From a virus: a DNA stretch of 20,557 nt. The position numbers and the translations under genes were made by a program. Shown here piece after piece: positions 3,691 to 14,575 of the stretch (the stretch's first letter is position 1; each line of letters begins with the position of its first letter). Where the stretch lies: IMG/VR virus record IMGVR_UViG_3300007538_000244, positions 1 through 20,557 of that record, one strand, 5' to 3'. Below the pieces are notes generated by a model that ran no database searches, was not told the origin of the DNA, and worked only from the letters and a program-made list of their open reading frames with translations.

Positions 3691-3834
3691 GTGAAAGATA
3701 TAGATAGCTGGTCAAAAGAGCAAAACTATTTAAACTGGCAACGTGCTGTCCAGATGGCTAATCAATGGCGGCGTATACTAGGTGTTAAAGAAGTGGGATA
3801 TCCGTATCCAGGGGAACCTAGAAGCAGGCAGTAA
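3691..3834 (+). CDS. Small hypothetical protein (47 aa)
   Basis: A GTG-initiated frame between two virion genes. It starts 3 bases after the preceding TAA and ends at TAA 3832-3834, 4 bases before the next ATG. The product reads MKDIDSWSKEQNYLNWQRAV, QMANQWRRILGVKEVG, YPYPGEPRSRQ. It fills the gap exactly and has protein-like composition (helical, Trp-rich), which supports a real gene despite the small size. Function is unknown; its position suggests a virion assembly or accessory role. Confidence 0.65.
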   Translation: MKDIDSWSKEQNYLNWQRAVQMANQWRRILGVKEVGYPYPGEPRSRQ

Positions 3835-3838
3835 TCAA

Positions 3839-6151
3839 ATGCCTAGAAGTAAAAAAAGTTTCGGTGGTAAATTTGATTCTCCATCGAAAAATAATTTCAA
3901 CGGGGCTAATTTTAGTAAATTCACAGAAGATAACCCATTCAAAAGCAATCCGGATTACACAAAAGAGACTCAAAAGTTTCAGTTTTTACCAAGTAATTCA
4001 CAATTGTTGAGTCGTATTCGATTTTACGATTACGACTCACTTTGGACTCGATGGCGCCGTGGGTATGAGCTCTACACCATCACCCAGAGTGTCCTAGGAT
4101 CTTTCGCTACAGAACGAAGGTCTCGCGGGGACTTCAGGATGTACTGTACGTTCCAGCAGTTCCCTGGTGTATTCATTCCAGCCCGTTTTTTTACGTTCCC
4201 CTCAAGTGATAAAGAAATTGGGGAGCAAATCGTCGGTATGCGAGATGCTAACGGTTTTAATTTTTACAATTTTGGATTACCGATTCTCGCTGTTCGCTAT
4301 CTAGGAGATTCTGTAACGACCTCTTACTCTCAGTCTGGTACAACCGTCACTATAACTAAGACTGATCACGGTCTTTTTCCGGGGGAGAGTGTTTTTTTGG
4401 ATTTCCAGACGGGAGCGTCAGTTGATGAAACTTTAACTGTAGTAAGCGTCACGCAAAATACTTTTACGCTTACTGCGACAAATCCGTTTACAACGAGTGG
4501 AAATGTAATTTACTACCTATCGACTACGTTTAATGATCCTCGGTGGACTACAACTCGAGTTCGACTGCGCTCGATCCCGACCCCAGTTAGATTCTTTGCT
4601 GGTGAACGACTCGTCGACCGTATAGTAGAAAGAGATCCAGGCATCTTCAGTACGTATTCGCGCACAGGCTCTACGGTCACAGTTAACTGCACGTCTGCGC
4701 ACGGGCTCTCTACTGGAAATAAGATTTTCGTTGCAATTATCACCGGTTTAGTTTCTGCTGGTCAATATGAAATTACGGTAACAAGCCCAACTCAAATGAC
4801 ATTTACTACGATTGACAGTGGCAGTACAACTGGTAACTTAGTCGTCAATCGCTTAATCCCTGGATTTAGATACGATGATTATGTTGGTTACACCGTTACA
4901 GGTGTAGATACAAATACAAATGAAGTTATTTTCCAACGAGCGGATAGTTTCGGTACAAAGACGGTAAATAGTAAATACGTTACAACCGTTCCTGCCGAAC
5001 GTGGGTTCACTGTTGGTCGTTTTTTGACGACGGATTTACGTTGGCAATGCTCTTGTCAGGATTTTATAAGGCGGGATAGTTACAATTTTTACAGCGACAA
5101 AACTTCTCAGCGGTTCCCGGTCACTGCAATCACCTCTACAAAACCCGGTGAGACGCAGAATGCAGATAACTCAATCGATGACATACGTGATAGCCCTGGT
5201 GTATTTTCCGATTTAGGCTACTCGGTTACAAATAATTTTTACCAGTTACCTGATTACCAGGATAAAAAGGAGTTTTCGTACCCTAATTTGTTTTACTACC
5301 AGATCCGCTGGTGTAAGCATATCTATGCAGCAATGTTCTCGATCCTGCATGATGAAGGTAATGAGCCGATTGCTTTAGCGGCAACCTATAGCCAATCTGG
5401 GGCAAACATTACTGTGACTTCTCCAGATCACGGACTTTCTGCTAATAGCAAGATTCAACTTGATTTTACAAGTGGCGATGCTATATCAGGGCAGTACACA
5501 ATAACCAGTGTTCCAAACAAGGACACGTTTGTTGTTGTGTACCCGTTTAGTTCATCTACGGGCGGTTATGTGACGGTCAGTAACTTACGAGAACATGATT
5601 TTGTAAAGTCGTGGATTTTAGAGCCGAATGATAAACCAATTGGTAATGCTCTCGATAAATTCTATGAAAACTTCTTAAAAGAAAATGAACGAGTGAAGCA
5701 AGCTGCTGAGCGTCTTACCATGATGCAGCAGGGTATGGAGTGGACTGGCGGTAAATCCGTTACAGGGTCTCGGAACCAGCCGGAGCAGGTAGCAGACTAC
5801 GATCCCCAGCTTCTCACCATGATGATGACGGATAGCATCCGCAGGAATTCAACAGGGGAATTGGATCGCAACGGTATTGAAGTGAATACGACAAACCGAA
5901 TGATTTCGATGATGAGCAAACTCTTGAATATTAATCCGACTTTAATTCAAGATACGAAATTTGGTATGTTGGACGAACCCCTCGTTAACTACGTACCTGA
6001 CTTTGAATTTGGTTTAATCTTTGGTGGTACGTATCTTAACGGTAATCCCGTTGAACCCGCTTCGGCCACAAGTACAATAGACTGTGATACGTATTCCCCG
6101 CTGACAGCACAAGATACACTCGTTGACGGCGGTCTTTACATTAACTCGTAG
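3839..6151 (+). CDS. Large virion protein with three FCCH-like domains and a SWIM-type zinc motif
   Basis: A 770-residue protein. I use ATG 3839 rather than the in-frame GTG 3782, because 3839 follows the upstream stop by 4 bases and 3782 would overlap that gene. Residues 1-50 are basic and disordered. Residues 50-155 are an aromatic-rich domain (RFYDYDSLWTRWRRGYELYT). Three copies of a small beta domain lie at about 161-226, 271-336 and 517-582, each with xHGLxxGxxVxxxF and TxFT signatures. Between copies two and three there is a SWIM-like zinc signature: WQCSCQDF (C404, C406) and WCKHIYA (C492, H494), separated by about 85 residues. The last 170 residues are helical (KFYENFLKENERVKQAAERL, MMSKLLNI). 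It is probably a tail/baseplate or internal virion protein. It ends in TAG, 2 bases before the next ATG, showing that TAG is an ordinary stop here. Confidence 0.85.
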   Translation: MPRSKKSFGGKFDSPSKNNFNGANFSKFTEDNPFKSNPDYTKETQKFQFLPSNSQLLSRIRFYDYDSLWTRWRRGYELYTITQSVLGSFATERRSRGDFRMYCTFQQFPGVFIPARFFTFPSSDKEIGEQIVGMRDANGFNFYNFGLPILAVRYLGDSVTTSYSQSGTTVTITKTDHGLFPGESVFLDFQTGASVDETLTVVSVTQNTFTLTATNPFTTSGNVIYYLSTTFNDPRWTTTRVRLRSIPTPVRFFAGERLVDRIVERDPGIFSTYSRTGSTVTVNCTSAHGLSTGNKIFVAIITGLVSAGQYEITVTSPTQMTFTTIDSGSTTGNLVVNRLIPGFRYDDYVGYTVTGVDTNTNEVIFQRADSFGTKTVNSKYVTTVPAERGFTVGRFLTTDLRWQCSCQDFIRRDSYNFYSDKTSQRFPVTAITSTKPGETQNADNSIDDIRDSPGVFSDLGYSVTNNFYQLPDYQDKKEFSYPNLFYYQIRWCKHIYAAMFSILHDEGNEPIALAATYSQSGANITVTSPDHGLSANSKIQLDFTSGDAISGQYTITSVPNKDTFVVVYPFSSSTGGYVTVSNLREHDFVKSWILEPNDKPIGNALDKFYENFLKENERVKQAAERLTMMQQGMEWTGGKSVTGSRNQPEQVADYDPQLLTMMMTDSIRRNSTGELDRNGIEVNTTNRMISMMSKLLNINPTLIQDTKFGMLDEPLVNYVPDFEFGLIFGGTYLNGNPVEPASATSTIDCDTYSPLTAQDTLVDGGLYINS

Positions 6152-6153
6152 TT

Positions 6154-6579
6154 ATGGCTGTTCAGATTCTATCTCGGCGTTCTAGCGTCTTATACGATAG
6201 GCCCTTTCCAATCCGTCTTGGCACGGCTGAGCTTGCAGTCAACAACAATCCTGGGGATCCTGGACTGTATTTTGCAGATAGCACAGCTTCTCCGTCTACA
6301 GGTCTGATCAAAGTAGGTCCAACATTTATCGGATCTACCGCCCCCAACACACCTGCAGTAGGTTTTACTTTATCCAGTAAAGGTGAATCTTGGCTAGATA
6401 CGTCTAGCACCTACATTCATAAGCTTTATGACGGAACCAGCTGGCAAACGCCTAAGGCTGTGGCATCGAACAGTAATGGTAAACCTGTGAGCCCTGTTGA
6501 TGGTCAGCTTCACTACGACAAGTTGATTCCCGGTTTGTTTATGTATGACGGTGCTACTGCTGCTTGGATTGCAGTCTAA
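6154..6579 (+). CDS. Fibre/virion structural protein
   Basis: A 141-residue protein with the fibre-type opening RPFPIRLGTAELAVNNNPGDP and GLYFADSTASPSTGLIKVGP. This resembles the short N-terminal domains that anchor phage fibres, where a sequence like LGTAELAVNxxPGDPGLYF recurs in cyanophage proteins. The C-terminal part has GESWLDTSSTYIHKLYDGTSW and GQLHYDKLIPGLFMYDGATA, short aromatic beta repeats typical of fibre or adhesion proteins. It starts two bases after the preceding TAG. Its stop abuts the end of the convergent minus-strand gene without a gap. Probably part of a tail fibre assembly. Confidence 0.75.
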   Translation: MAVQILSRRSSVLYDRPFPIRLGTAELAVNNNPGDPGLYFADSTASPSTGLIKVGPTFIGSTAPNTPAVGFTLSSKGESWLDTSSTYIHKLYDGTSWQTPKAVASNSNGKPVSPVDGQLHYDKLIPGLFMYDGATAAWIAV

Positions 6580-6828
6580 TCAGTGAGGATGGTTTAGGAT
6601 GTGGTCCAGGATTCGATCGAGTTTCGTGTGAACAGCTTGCACCTCACGAAGGAAGTCTTCTTTTAGAACATATTCTTTGATTACTCGATCTTGGAAGTTA
6701 TCTAAATCATTCTCGATTGCTTCAAAACGACGTTCAATACGCTTGTTAAAATTAGATAGAGCTCGTGATAAACCGGCAAACGCGCCTGCACTGCCAGAAA
6801 GAACAGCCACAATCAATTCTGGCGTCAC
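6580..6828 (-). CDS. Small membrane-anchored coiled-coil protein (XhlA-like)
   Basis: An 82-residue protein. Residues 4-24 (ELIVAVLSGSAGAFAGLSRA) form a likely membrane segment. The rest (KRIERRFEAIENDLDNFQDR and FLREVQAVHTKLDRILDHIL) is a charged coiled coil. This arrangement recalls phage haemolysin XhlA/holin-accessory proteins and similar short cyanophage proteins, but the motif is generic. It is the only minus-strand gene inside the + strand structural block and converges with the upstream fibre gene with zero spacing, so the two transcripts would overlap. About 72 bases separate its start from the next + strand start at 6901. Confidence 0.65.
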   Translation of the reverse strand: MTPELIVAVLSGSAGAFAGLSRALSNFNKRIERRFEAIENDLDNFQDRVIKEYVLKEDFLREVQAVHTKLDRILDHILNHPH

Positions 6829-6900
6829 TTTTATCTGATTGATTTTTTACTATTCTAAAGGAGTCAACAGCTTAAAATAAAGTGAGGAGACAACCAGGCA

Positions 6901-6981
6901 GTGGCAACCGGATACGAACCTAATAATGGAACAATATCAACACAAGACTTTGCTGCCGCAATTGCAGTTGCACTAGGATAG
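6901..6981 (+). CDS. Very small peptide (26 aa) before fibre gene
   Basis: A GTG-initiated frame with AGGAG about 12 bases upstream. It encodes MATGYEPNNGTISTQDF and ends AAAIAVALG before TAG 6979-6981, 4 bases before the next ATG. Its ending (IAVALG) resembles the end of the following fibre protein (IALIVALG), so it may be a truncated copy of a fibre C-terminal segment, or a real minor peptide. The close spacing favours translation, but size alone makes the call tentative. Confidence 0.45.
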   Translation: MATGYEPNNGTISTQDFAAAIAVALG

Positions 6982-6985
6982 AACT

Positions 6986-7390
6986 ATGGCCACTCAAGTA
7001 CAATTTCGTCGCGGTACATCTACCGAAACAGCCAACTTTATCGGTGCCGATGGTGAAGTTACGGTCGATACAACTAAGAATACATGTGTTGTTCACGATG
7101 CTTTCCAGGCAGGTGGATACCCTCTCCTTCGTGAAGACGGCACTAACACCGCATTCTCCCCTGGCTCCTTAAGTAGTTGTGCTCTTAAGTTTGCTGGAGA
7201 TTTCAATACGGGTATCATCAACCCTGGTGCCGATCAGCTTGCACTTGTAACAGGTGGTGTTGCTAGATTTACAATAGATTCATCAGGTTCCGTTACTGTT
7301 CCAGGAAACATGACAATTACCGGAAGCTTGACCGTAACAGGCAGTCTTAACTCCACTGACAGCATTGCTCTTATTGTCGCTTTAGGTTGA
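6986..7390 (+). CDS. Tail fibre protein with Mtd_N-like N-terminus
   Basis: A 134-residue protein starting MATQVQFRRGTSTETANFIG, then ADGEVTVDTTKNTCVVHDAF. This is the typical QFRRGT...GADGEVTVDTxKxxxxVHD pattern of the Mtd N-terminal domain (PF18454-like) that many phage and cyanophage fibres use to attach to the tail. Next comes a trimer-type beta motif (LKFAGDFNTGIINPGADQLA, GGVARFTIDSSG), also seen in the 8099 gene (DSDLDTGIYNPAANEVG, AGVQRLKINSAG). It ends with serine/threonine-rich beta strands (MTITGSLTVTGSL). It is short for a complete fibre, so it may be a fibre base or adaptor. It stops with TGA one base before the next start. Confidence 0.82.
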   Translation: MATQVQFRRGTSTETANFIGADGEVTVDTTKNTCVVHDAFQAGGYPLLREDGTNTAFSPGSLSSCALKFAGDFNTGIINPGADQLALVTGGVARFTIDSSGSVTVPGNMTITGSLTVTGSLNSTDSIALIVALG

Positions 7391-7391
7391 T

Positions 7392-7736
7392 ATGGCTAAT
7401 ACATTCAAAAATAACACCAAGTCCAGCCTGGTAACTGCCGCCATCACCGATCCTTCGGCAACTGTTGTTACTACTGGTGGCACGGCAACTTTGATTATTC
7501 TGAGTGTTCTTGCATCTAACAAGACAGGCACCAGTGCAGACCTTGATGTTTATATCGATAAGAGCACTGGGGATGATGTCTACTTGATTCGTAATGCCCC
7601 TGTCCCCGCTGGATCCTCACTCGAGATTATTAGCGGTAATAAAGTGATCATGGAGGCGAGTGACAAGCTTCAAGCCAGGTGTGGCACAAGTAGTGCGATT
7701 GATTTGACTGTTAGCTATCTTGAGCAGACGCCGTAA
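7392..7736 (+). CDS. Virion structural protein (beta-sandwich type)
   Basis: A 114-residue protein of cyanophage virion type, starting MANTFKNNTKSSLVTAAITD. It continues with alternating hydrophobic strands (GGTATLIILSVLASNKTG, SADLDVYIDKSTGDDVYLIR) and ends in LTVSYLEQTP. The composition (Thr, Ser, Ala, Val) and even strand spacing suggest a single beta sandwich. The N-terminal FKNNTKSSLV resembles the start of the next, amber-interrupted frame (FTKNTTSKGLV), so the two may share a short attachment motif. It starts one base after the upstream stop. Confidence 0.72.
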   Translation: MANTFKNNTKSSLVTAAITDPSATVVTTGGTATLIILSVLASNKTGTSADLDVYIDKSTGDDVYLIRNAPVPAGSSLEIISGNKVIMEASDKLQARCGTSSAIDLTVSYLEQTP

Positions 7737-7744
7737 TACTCGTA

Positions 7745-8074
7745 ATGTCATTTACTAAAAACACCACTAGCAAAGGCCTTGTTAGCGAGGTTGCTCTATT
7801 GAAGGAGCGCGTGTAGCTTTTAGAAGAGGTGTTGCGCGAGAAAAAAGTTTTAGAGGAAGAAAATACATCTTGGGACGTAGTACGTGCAAAGTGTAATTAC
7901 CTTCTAAAATCGACCGATTGGACAGTCGCCTCAGGATCTTCTTTGGACTAGGCTCAGTGGGCTGCGTATCGACAAATCTTACGTGATCTACCACAGATAT
8001 ATATTAACTTTGAGGATGTGGTGTGGCTTACTCAGCCTCCTACTAACGGTCCCAACGTGGATCCGGTAGAATAA
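7745..8074 (+). pseudogene. Tail-assembly-chaperone-like frame interrupted by two in-frame TAG codons
   Basis: From ATG 7745 a single frame runs 110 codons to TAA 8072-8074, broken only by TAG at 7814-7816 (codon 24) and 7949-7951 (codon 69). Read through, it gives a short N-terminal motif (MSFTKNTTSKGLV), a coiled coil (EVALLKERV-x-LLEEVLREKK), then CNYLLKSTDWTVAS, GSSLD-x-AQWAAYRQIL, RDLPQIYINFEDVVW. The latter matches the pattern of phage tail assembly chaperone-like proteins (PF16778 type: LLxxSDW...W..YRxxLRDxP...V.WP) and is paralogous to the 9137 gene. There are no frameshifts and the product is otherwise fully protein-like. Both TAGs could come from CAG by one C-to-T change. Because TAG ends several neighbouring genes, I class it as a recent pseudogene or a readthrough gene. 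No other convincing gene occupies 7737-8098. Confidence 0.7.
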
Positions 8075-8098: not shown

Positions 8099-8917
8099 GT
8101 GAGTTACATCGGGAACCAACTGCAGACCGCTTTCCCTGCTTATCTCAACATTGATGACATAAGCGGTTCTTTTGATGGTGTAACAACTTCGTTTGCACTT
8201 ACGGTTGGCGGTGTTGCGCCGGTGCCGGCACCTACTAGTTCGAACCAGTGTTTGATTTCTGTTGGGAGTGTTATACAACGTCCTGATGATACAGGTACTG
8301 AAGGTTTCCGTTTAAGTGGCGGCAACATAATTTTTAGCTCGGCTCCTGCGGCTTTAGATGATTTCTTTGGTGTTATCCTTGCCGGCGCAGATTATATCAA
8401 TGTGGGAGTTAACTTCCCTAGTGGTACAGCAGGCGCTCCCAGTATTACGTTTGACTCTGACTTAGATACTGGTATTTATAATCCTGCTGCAAATGAGGTG
8501 GGTATTGTTACTGCAGGGGTTCAGCGACTTAAAATCAATAGCGCTGGTTTGGTTACCTTCAGCGGTTCTTTAGATAATCCTGCAATCAAAGGAACCATTA
8601 TTGAAGATATTTATACCATTAGTGATGGTGCGGCATTTGAAATTGACCCTGGCAATGGTAGTGTCCAATTGATTACTCTTGGAGCTAACCGCACACCTAA
8701 GGCAACAAACTTCGCTGCAGGTCAGTCCATCATGTTAATGGTGGATGACGGCACCGCTTACACCTTAACTTGGACCGATGCTACTTTTGGTGGTAGTGGT
8801 GTGGTATGGAAAACTGATGCAGGTGTTGCGCCAACACTTAACACAAGTGGATATACTTCTATTGTACTGTGGAAAGTTGGGACGCAGGTGTATGGTGCTC
8901 GAGTGGGGGATGCATGA
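8099..8917 (+). CDS. Tail fibre protein (YIGNQ type)
   Basis: A 272-residue protein starting from GTG 8099 with MSYIGNQLQTAFPAYLNIDD. The YIGN[QxP/QLQT] opening followed by GSFDGVTTSFALTV is common at the start of cyanophage fibre proteins. A middle motif (ITFDSDLDTGIYNPAANEVG, VTAGVQRLKINSAG) matches the trimer-type element of the 6986 fibre. The C-terminal third (SVQLITLGANRTPKATNF, TLTWTDATFGGSG, SIVLWKVGTQVYGAR) resembles the fibre-end domains of T4-like cyanophages. The protein is short for a full fibre and may be one segment of a split fibre. Its TGA overlaps the next gene's start. Confidence 0.82.
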   Translation: MSYIGNQLQTAFPAYLNIDDISGSFDGVTTSFALTVGGVAPVPAPTSSNQCLISVGSVIQRPDDTGTEGFRLSGGNIIFSSAPAALDDFFGVILAGADYINVGVNFPSGTAGAPSITFDSDLDTGIYNPAANEVGIVTAGVQRLKINSAGLVTFSGSLDNPAIKGTIIEDIYTISDGAAFEIDPGNGSVQLITLGANRTPKATNFAAGQSIMLMVDDGTAYTLTWTDATFGGSGVVWKTDAGVAPTLNTSGYTSIVLWKVGTQVYGARVGDA

Positions 8918-9120
8918 TGTTGACTAAGAAAGCATTGTCTGCGACATCAGCTTCCACTGGGTGGAACCTGGCTAACGCTGTTTACGATGGTTCGTCATTT
9001 AACTTCTTCTCCGTAGTTCCACAGGAGACAAATCCACGAGGTCTGTTCTTCAAAGGGGGTGGTAAAAAGATGTATGTTCTTAGTCGCCTTACTCTTGGCG
9101 TGTGGTCTTACGACCTTTAA
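8914..9120 (+). CDS. One-repeat fragment of a fibre repeat protein
   Basis: A 68-residue product from ATG 8914 (a second ATG follows directly). It contains ASTGWNLANAVYDGSSF, NFFSVVPQETNPRGLFFKGG and GKKMYVLSRLTLGVWSYDL. This is one copy of the repeat FSVxxQxTxPxGLFFKxDGxKMYVLxxxxxxVxxYDL, which in other phage fibre proteins is arranged in tandem, probably as propeller-like blades. Here the chain stops immediately after a single unit, so it may be a remnant, or a blade that joins another chain. The start overlaps the preceding stop (ATGA), so translation is coupled to the 8099 fibre. Confidence 0.65.
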   Translation: MMLTKKALSATSASTGWNLANAVYDGSSFNFFSVVPQETNPRGLFFKGGGKKMYVLSRLTLGVWSYDL

Positions 9121-9136: not shown

Positions 9137-9592
9137 ATGTACGTCAAACTTTTCGACAATAAGCCCAGCAAGTTTCCATACGGCTTGGGTGAGCTGAAAA
9201 AAGAAAATCCGGGGACATCTTTCCCGACCGTCATTCCTGCGGAAACCTTGGCATCCTTTGATGTTTACGAGGTAACTCCTACACCTGCTCCTAAATTTGA
9301 TAGCACCACACATTCTGCGACTGCTTGGGTCGAACATGTCAATGGTGCATGGTTGCAGACGTGGACAGTGCAGGAGTTGCCTGAAGATCTAGCCGCTACA
9401 AATGTGCGTGGTATCCGCAATCAGCTTTTATCAGAAAGTGATTGGACGCAGATTGCAGACAGTCCCTTAGATCCAGACGGCAAGGCTGCATGGTCACTTT
9501 ACCGCGAAAGCTTACGGATGATTCCGCAACAAGCTGGCTTTCCTCGGGATGTTCAGTGGCCGCCTGAACCTGGTTCTATTGATGAATCATGA
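9137..9592 (+). CDS. Phage tail assembly chaperone-like protein
   Basis: A 151-residue protein with an N-terminal fibre-chaperone-like part (MYVKLFDNKPSKFPYGLGEL) and a Pro/Thr linker. The C-terminal domain carries IRNQLLSESDWTQIADSPLD, AAWSLYRESLRMIPQQAG and VQWPPEP. That is the signature of PF16778-type phage tail assembly chaperones (RxxLLxxSDWTQxxDxPL...WxxYRxxLRxxP...VxWPxxP), which accompany fibre genes and help them fold or trimerise. The interrupted frame at 7745 is a shorter paralog. The stop overlaps the following gene by 4 bases (ATGA). Confidence 0.78.
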   Translation: MYVKLFDNKPSKFPYGLGELKKENPGTSFPTVIPAETLASFDVYEVTPTPAPKFDSTTHSATAWVEHVNGAWLQTWTVQELPEDLAATNVRGIRNQLLSESDWTQIADSPLDPDGKAAWSLYRESLRMIPQQAGFPRDVQWPPEPGSIDES

Positions 9593-13442: not shown

Positions 13443-13787
13443 ATGGCGTTTTTTGAAGGGTATCAGCAGACACTCAGTAAAAATTTTGATGAGCTGACCG
13501 CACCAGGAGTTACTGATGTAGTTGATGTGCATGTCGTTAACTATTTCTCTAGTAGAAATTACACGATGATTGTGACGGTTACGGATATTGATGATTCAGT
13601 TGTTGTTCGCTTGGATGCAAGCCTTGACGGTATCAATTACGGGCCGTTAATTTCAAATACCATCACCAAGAACGGAACCTATCCCTATTATGCTAATGGT
13701 GCGCCCGTTGGTTTTGTTAGGTGTAACTTTTTGAAGGAAACAGGTGGTACTAATGCAGTTGTTAAGTTCAGTATTTCCGCTAATTAA
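13443..13787 (+). CDS. Virion-like beta protein
   Basis: A 114-residue protein: MAFFEGYQQTLSKNFDELTA, NYFSSRNYTMIVTVTDIDD, VVVRLDASLDGINYGPLISN, ending VVKFSISAN. Alternating strands of Val/Ile/Thr and a DGxNYGPL turn resemble small beta-sandwich virion or decoration proteins. AAGG lies 4 bases before the ATG. The stop shares TTAA with the convergent oxygenase gene (4-base overlap). Otherwise unassigned. Confidence 0.68.
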   Translation: MAFFEGYQQTLSKNFDELTAPGVTDVVDVHVVNYFSSRNYTMIVTVTDIDDSVVVRLDASLDGINYGPLISNTITKNGTYPYYANGAPVGFVRCNFLKETGGTNAVVKFSISAN

Positions 13788-14575
13788 ATAAGGCTCCAGC
13801 TCCTAAACCACTTGGTAATTACGTATTTTGACCCACTTAGTGGCGGTTTCGCTTCATGGAGTGTTTTAGGGTTCGGTATCCCGTTGGAGTAAAGATTGTT
13901 CCAGGCGATTAACGTTCCCCTTTTAGGTTTTACAGTTAATTTTAGGTGCTTAAAGAATGTCTCGCCTCCTTCCTCTACATCATTGAGGTATAACATTGCT
14001 GTCCAGGTTCTTTGTCCCATCCATGTGCAATATGTTTCATATTCTTTAGACAACGGGGGGAAGAAATCGTGATGCTCTTTATAGTATTGACCAATTTCGT
14101 ACTTTTGGGATTGCATTGCTTCTCCGCAGAACGGACTAAGCCCCATGATGTTTGTTATCCGCTGATCAATTGCTAAATACAGGGAATCATGAAAGTAGTG
14201 TAAGCAAGCTGTTTTACTGGTTCTGTACGGAGAAACCACATTTTGCTTATCTTTATCGGCAACTGTAGACGGATTTAAATCTTTCTCTACTTTTTCGATT
14301 AAATCTTCCGCTTCTTTCTCTGTAACTAAGTTATCGTAGGTGTAAACCTGGGTGAATGGGTAGTAAATGCGTTTACCTTTCAGGGTAATAGGCGCGTTAT
14401 AGAATCCCTTGTAGTCAATAGATCTAGGTTTAGACCGAAAAGAGCAAAGTTCTATGATTTGCTCAATTTCTTCATCGGTTAGGTTGTATATATCTTTGTA
14501 GTTTTCTTTAAGGTGTAACTTGCTACTGCCACAAACGGCTGCCTCCATGAAAGATTTGATGATGCTGTTATCCAT
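13784..14575 (-). CDS. 2OG-Fe(II) oxygenase, prolyl-4-hydroxylase-like
   Basis: A 263-residue protein with a C-terminal dioxygenase domain. HHD at 168-170 gives the iron-binding HxD (YKEHHDFFP). MLYLNDVEEGGETFF (194-208) and GTLIAWNNLYSNGIPNP (220-236) match the double-stranded beta-helix core. TLHEAKPPLSGSKYVITKWF carries the distal iron His (H240) and the 2-oxoglutarate-binding Lys (K250). These enzymes hydroxylate proline or other residues or small molecules using O2, Fe(II) and 2-oxoglutarate. P4H-like genes are common in cyanophages; their substrate is generally unknown. The first 60 residues are a separate helical segment, and YYPFTQVYTYDNLVTEKEAE opens the enzyme domain. It is transcribed against the flanking genes. 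Confidence 0.9.
   Translation of the reverse strand: MDNSIIKSFMEAAVCGSSKLHLKENYKDIYNLTDEEIEQIIELCSFRSKPRSIDYKGFYNAPITLKGKRIYYPFTQVYTYDNLVTEKEAEDLIEKVEKDLNPSTVADKDKQNVVSPYRTSKTACLHYFHDSLYLAIDQRITNIMGLSPFCGEAMQSQKYEIGQYYKEHHDFFPPLSKEYETYCTWMGQRTWTAMLYLNDVEEGGETFFKHLKLTVKPKRGTLIAWNNLYSNGIPNPKTLHEAKPPLSGSKYVITKWFRSWSLI

Follow-up and report, generated by a model that had tools for sequence, protein, structure and literature searches.

A tail-fibre chaperone gene with two in-frame TAG codons: probable decay after exchange of the fibre tip

The tail-fibre locus

The window analysed here is the whole of a 20,557-base IMG/VR record, which is probably a fragment; compared in full by megablast with annotated phages, it gave no match. 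Its tail-fibre gene cluster (Table 1) includes a reading frame, chap1, that runs from ATG at 7745 to TAA at 8072-8074, 110 codons without a frameshift, of which codons 24 and 69 are TAG, exactly as described in the initial annotation. When translated with X at each stop, the form in which a search against phage proteins had been proposed there, chap1 matches the Pfam family PF16778 (Phage_tail_APC) with an E value of 6.5e-10 and 39.1 bits, above the gathering cut-off of 26.6 bits, and also phrog_4912 (tail fiber assembly). The suggested kinship with PF16778-type chaperones is thus borne out, and the frame that had been proposed as a paralogue, chap2, proves to belong to the same family. The conserved PF16778 core of chap1 comprises residues 45-97, and the second stop falls inside it. 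Chance cannot account for the frame, because dozens of relatives in syntenic positions match it on both sides of each stop.

Table 1. Features of the tail-fibre locus, with positions in the window
Feature	Position	Strand	Description
Deletion stub	6901..6981	+	26 codons; the first part of one gene joined in frame to the last part of a second
gB	6986..7390	+	Intact gene for a short, fibre-like protein; Mtd_N domain (PF18454); usually found next to gC and chap1, on their upstream side
gC	7392..7736	+	Small conserved protein, intact; adjoins chap1 upstream in most relatives; 93% identical in contig L130
chap1	7745..8074	+	Apparent pseudogene of a PF16778 tail-fibre assembly chaperone; two TAG codons, otherwise open
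TAG codon 24	7814..7816	+	Column variable among relatives
TAG codon 69	7949..7951	+	Relatives have Gln (58 of 64) or Pro (6 of 64)
Chimeric fibre	8099..8917	+	Residues 1 to ~150, chap1-type module; residues 157-272, different tip module
Propeller remnant	8869..9120	+	About one repeat left; frameshifted in twin contig L002
chap2	9137..9592	+	Intact PF16778 chaperone (E 6.5e-20); in other contigs it occurs together with the fibre tip module

Two gene modules meet at this locus. Module A, found in most relatives, has the order gB, gC, chap1, fibN, with fibN running on into its own tip. Module B, found in a second set of contigs, has the order fibTip, a propeller-repeat gene (in some of them) and chap2. 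Only the window and a twin contig join the two, giving the order gB, gC, chap1, a fibN-fibTip fusion, the propeller remnant and chap2. The twin, L002 (IMGVR_UViG_3300007542_000249), is 99.83% identical to the window across 15.9 kb. The tip part of the fused fibre is up to 89% identical to contigs L054-L056. The breakpoint in the fibre gene lies near residue 150, and its two tail modules otherwise occur in separate contigs.

Other genes of the locus are also altered. The ends of the two parent genes that are fused in the stub lie ~2.3 kb apart in a relative (L004, 4307-6696), which carries three tail genes there (177, 154 and 440 aa), and the stub is the junction of a ~2.3-kb deletion by which, compared with L004, three genes were lost. 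A ribosome-binding-like GAGGAG stands upstream of the stub. Downstream of the fibre, a propeller-repeat protein that has 538 aa in contig L104 is reduced in the window to about one repeat (blade). The corresponding region of the twin (around 6713-6847) has an extra G that shifts the frame, together with two amino-acid changes in 252 bases; other coding differences between window and twin are mostly silent. Elsewhere in the window, the minus strand carries a 2OG-Fe(II) oxygenase-like gene (13784-14575), the nearest annotated relatives of which are from a faecal phage and Erwinia phages, not cyanophages.

Comparison of chap1 with its relatives

A tblastn search over all fetched loci identified dozens of chap1 relatives, most of them directly downstream of a gC homologue. 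They number about 65 and are mostly syntenic, and the column counts given here are taken from 64 of them. Stops at codons 24 and 69 are seen in the twin contig alone; the ~65 others are open at both positions. The two sites differ in character. Whereas codon 69 is a Gln site in most relatives, codon 24 is occupied by Glu in 22, Ala in 12, Ser in 8, Asp in 6, Lys in 5 and Gln in just 1, and the closest intact copy (L051, 70% identical) has Glu (GAG) at codon 24 and Gln at codon 69. The proposal that both TAGs arose from CAG is therefore plausible for codon 69, but not for codon 24.

The window copy also departs from its relatives at sense codons. Position 50 is Cys in the window and Arg in 64/64 relatives, and position 95 is Leu where all 64 have Pro; at position 85 Ile replaces the Thr of 56 relatives (the other 8 have Lys or Arg), and at position 63 Ser replaces a Pro found in 53 of the 64. 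In its number of departures at conserved columns, chap1 of the window exceeds every relative with an intact frame, and only L174 has as many or more. The L174 copy (7574-7833), a chaperone of the same family, is split by a frameshift, so that either the window is not alone in having a broken copy or this contig contains an assembly error. The changes at conserved positions 50, 63, 69, 85 and 95 are each explicable by a coding-strand C-to-T substitution.

Leave-out profile scoring places chap1 of the window last of 65, with 133.8 bits compared with 167-180 bits for sister proteins of the same length. When sense residues are supplied at both stops it rises to about sixth from last, within the low end of the intact members. 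Among the backbone relatives closest to the window, a 77.6-kb contig included, neither the family profile nor tblastn detected a chaperone gene of this kind, and chap1 is thus dispensable in the group. Pattern scans for closer relatives, or for intermediates with a single TAG, returned only contigs that were already known.

A codon model applied to the branch that ends in the window copy rejects neutrality over the branch as a whole (two-rate against neutral model, 2dlnL 16.4), with synonymous sites saturated. Because the whole branch is not neutral, most of the divergence from L051 appears to have accumulated under selection, and any loss of chap1 must be late. Relative-rate tests give window-specific excesses of 11:5, 10:5 and 7:3, which lean towards the window copy and are not significant. 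With saturated synonymous sites and a recombining locus, both kinds of test are too weak to prove relaxed selection by themselves. A comparison of chaperone identity with upstream-gene identity is uninformative, since fibre modules are swapped. Considered together, the lost residues and the branch tests fit a gene that selection maintained over most of its history and has ceased to maintain only recently. If change is neutral, some 5% of the single-base mutations in chap1 create a stop, nearly half of these being TAG; at that rate, a pair of TAGs with no further stop, set against roughly a dozen amino-acid changes specific to the window copy, is not remarkable.

Readings of the two TAG codons

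Use of TAG at other gene ends leads us to reject its recoding throughout the genome, as the initial annotation had argued. The TAG at 6149 terminates a large baseplate-like gene (3782-6151) whose relatives end there too, with TAG in 32, TAA in 39 and TGA in 4, and another TAG terminates 2124-2339 where relatives likewise end. A more restricted reading is that the two TAGs in chap1 are read as an amino acid, with the help of a suppressor tRNA from the phage or its host or through programmed readthrough, so as to give a full-length chaperone late in infection. This would agree with a frame that is intact apart from its stops, with the prevalence of Gln at codon 69 and with purifying selection across most of the chap1 branch. 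Against it, no tRNA with a CUA anticodon, the suppressor whose presence had been proposed as a check, was found in the window, the twin, the related 77.6-kb contig or the other related loci scanned; the only tRNA that ARAGORN finds in the window is the Leu(UAA) already noted. No further gene of the window carries a well-supported internal stop. When 6,002 of its codons were aligned, in the best frame, with the proteins of relatives, the only broadly supported interior stops were those at 7814 and 7949; the remainder lie at alignment ends or are backed by one to three sequences, except for one at 6142, which falls just ahead of a gene start at 6154. Taken with the ordinary use of TAG as a stop, the usual absence of Gln at codon 24, the conserved residues lost at sense codons and the decay of the neighbouring fibre genes, these results speak against the double readthrough or suppression to Gln that had been put forward, and we consider translation through the stops very unlikely. 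Unassisted readthrough of two stops is expected to yield very little protein. There is a slim chance that a tRNA or other factor encoded beyond the examined sequences acts on them; that an amber suppressor of phage or host, encoded outside the fragment, would be supplied only late in infection, with two TAGs gating a single chaperone, is of similarly low probability.

The evidence base consists of metagenome contigs only, and the TAGs might on that account have been introduced into an intact gene by faulty sequencing or assembly. A sequencing error common to both contigs is unlikely, however, since both TAGs are present in the twin even though 27 positions of the 15.9 kb separate it from the window, and error at these sites would leave the loss of conserved residues unexplained; we give this reading next to no weight. 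Barely credible, too, is the idea that chap1 is translated by re-initiation as three cooperating pieces (residues 1-23, 25-68 and 70-109). All three lie in one frame, and GTG and TTG codons follow the first TAG, but the conserved core itself is broken by the second stop, no relative has a split gene so arranged, and the lost residues again count against a working product.

Probable decay after module exchange, and comparison with known systems

We conclude that chap1 is very probably a young pseudogene that became redundant after a swap of the fibre tip and its chaperone, and that its stops reflect ordinary decay and not a novel mode of decoding. The initial annotation had offered a very young pseudogene as an alternative; it is now the better supported explanation, given relatives that are open at both sites, the loss of invariant residues and the decayed neighbours. 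The frame is broken where those of its relatives are intact, as is expected of a pseudogene; that it is broken by substitutions alone, with no indel, counts against this assignment. A member of PF16778 should have one uninterrupted reading frame, which chap1 lacks, and on the sequence evidence we class it as a putative pseudogene of the family and do not count it as a working member.

In this population the fibre has taken on the tip of a different module, and the new tip arrived together with a propeller gene and a dedicated chaperone, chap2. The tip that was lost would have been the client of chap1, and with this likely client gone chap1 would no longer have been maintained. It would then have acquired its two stops and lost several conserved residues, in each case through a single-base change, so that it probably yields no useful protein today. 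This order of events places the tip swap before the decay of chap1, as seems likely. The upstream deletion, like the reduction of the propeller gene to a remnant, is probably part of the same turnover of the locus.

On this interpretation chap1 drops out as a possible example of regulated suppression of stop codons in an aquatic phage. What would be left is one documented case of tip exchange in which the incoming fibre tip came with a chaperone of its own and the earlier chaperone decayed afterwards, and the chap1/chap2 pair fits the idea that such chaperones are specific to their own fibre tip. A literature search on tail-fibre chaperone pseudogenes found nothing relevant.

Comparison with phages that use code 15 (TAG = Gln), such as crAss-like phages (PMC9523058), brings out both a likeness and clear differences. 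As in those phages, TAG occurs inside a phage gene of the window, and one of the two lies at a Gln site of the relatives. Recoding in known TAG-recoding phages is spread over many genes, as in phAss-1, with TAG in 41 ORFs (PMC10607447), whereas in the 20.5 kb of the window a single gene has in-frame TAGs. A code-15 phage would be marked by a CUA tRNA, many genes with in-frame TAG, TAG unused as a terminator and TAG at conserved Gln sites. The window has none of the first three, TAG being a true stop there as well, and the last holds for codon 69 but not for codon 24.

The likeness to PF16778 (phrog_4912) lies in a C-terminal domain match above the cut-off and in the tail-fibre gene setting. 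The syntenic relatives in this family have kept the residues concerned, whereas chap1 differs from them by its two in-frame stops and its lost residues. The closest parallel is with the ordinary pseudogenes that arise from phage tail-fibre module exchange. The chap1 locus shares with them a chimeric fibre, an imported chaperone, a deletion stub and broken neighbours; it shows no essential difference from them, and we regard it as an individual instance of that process.
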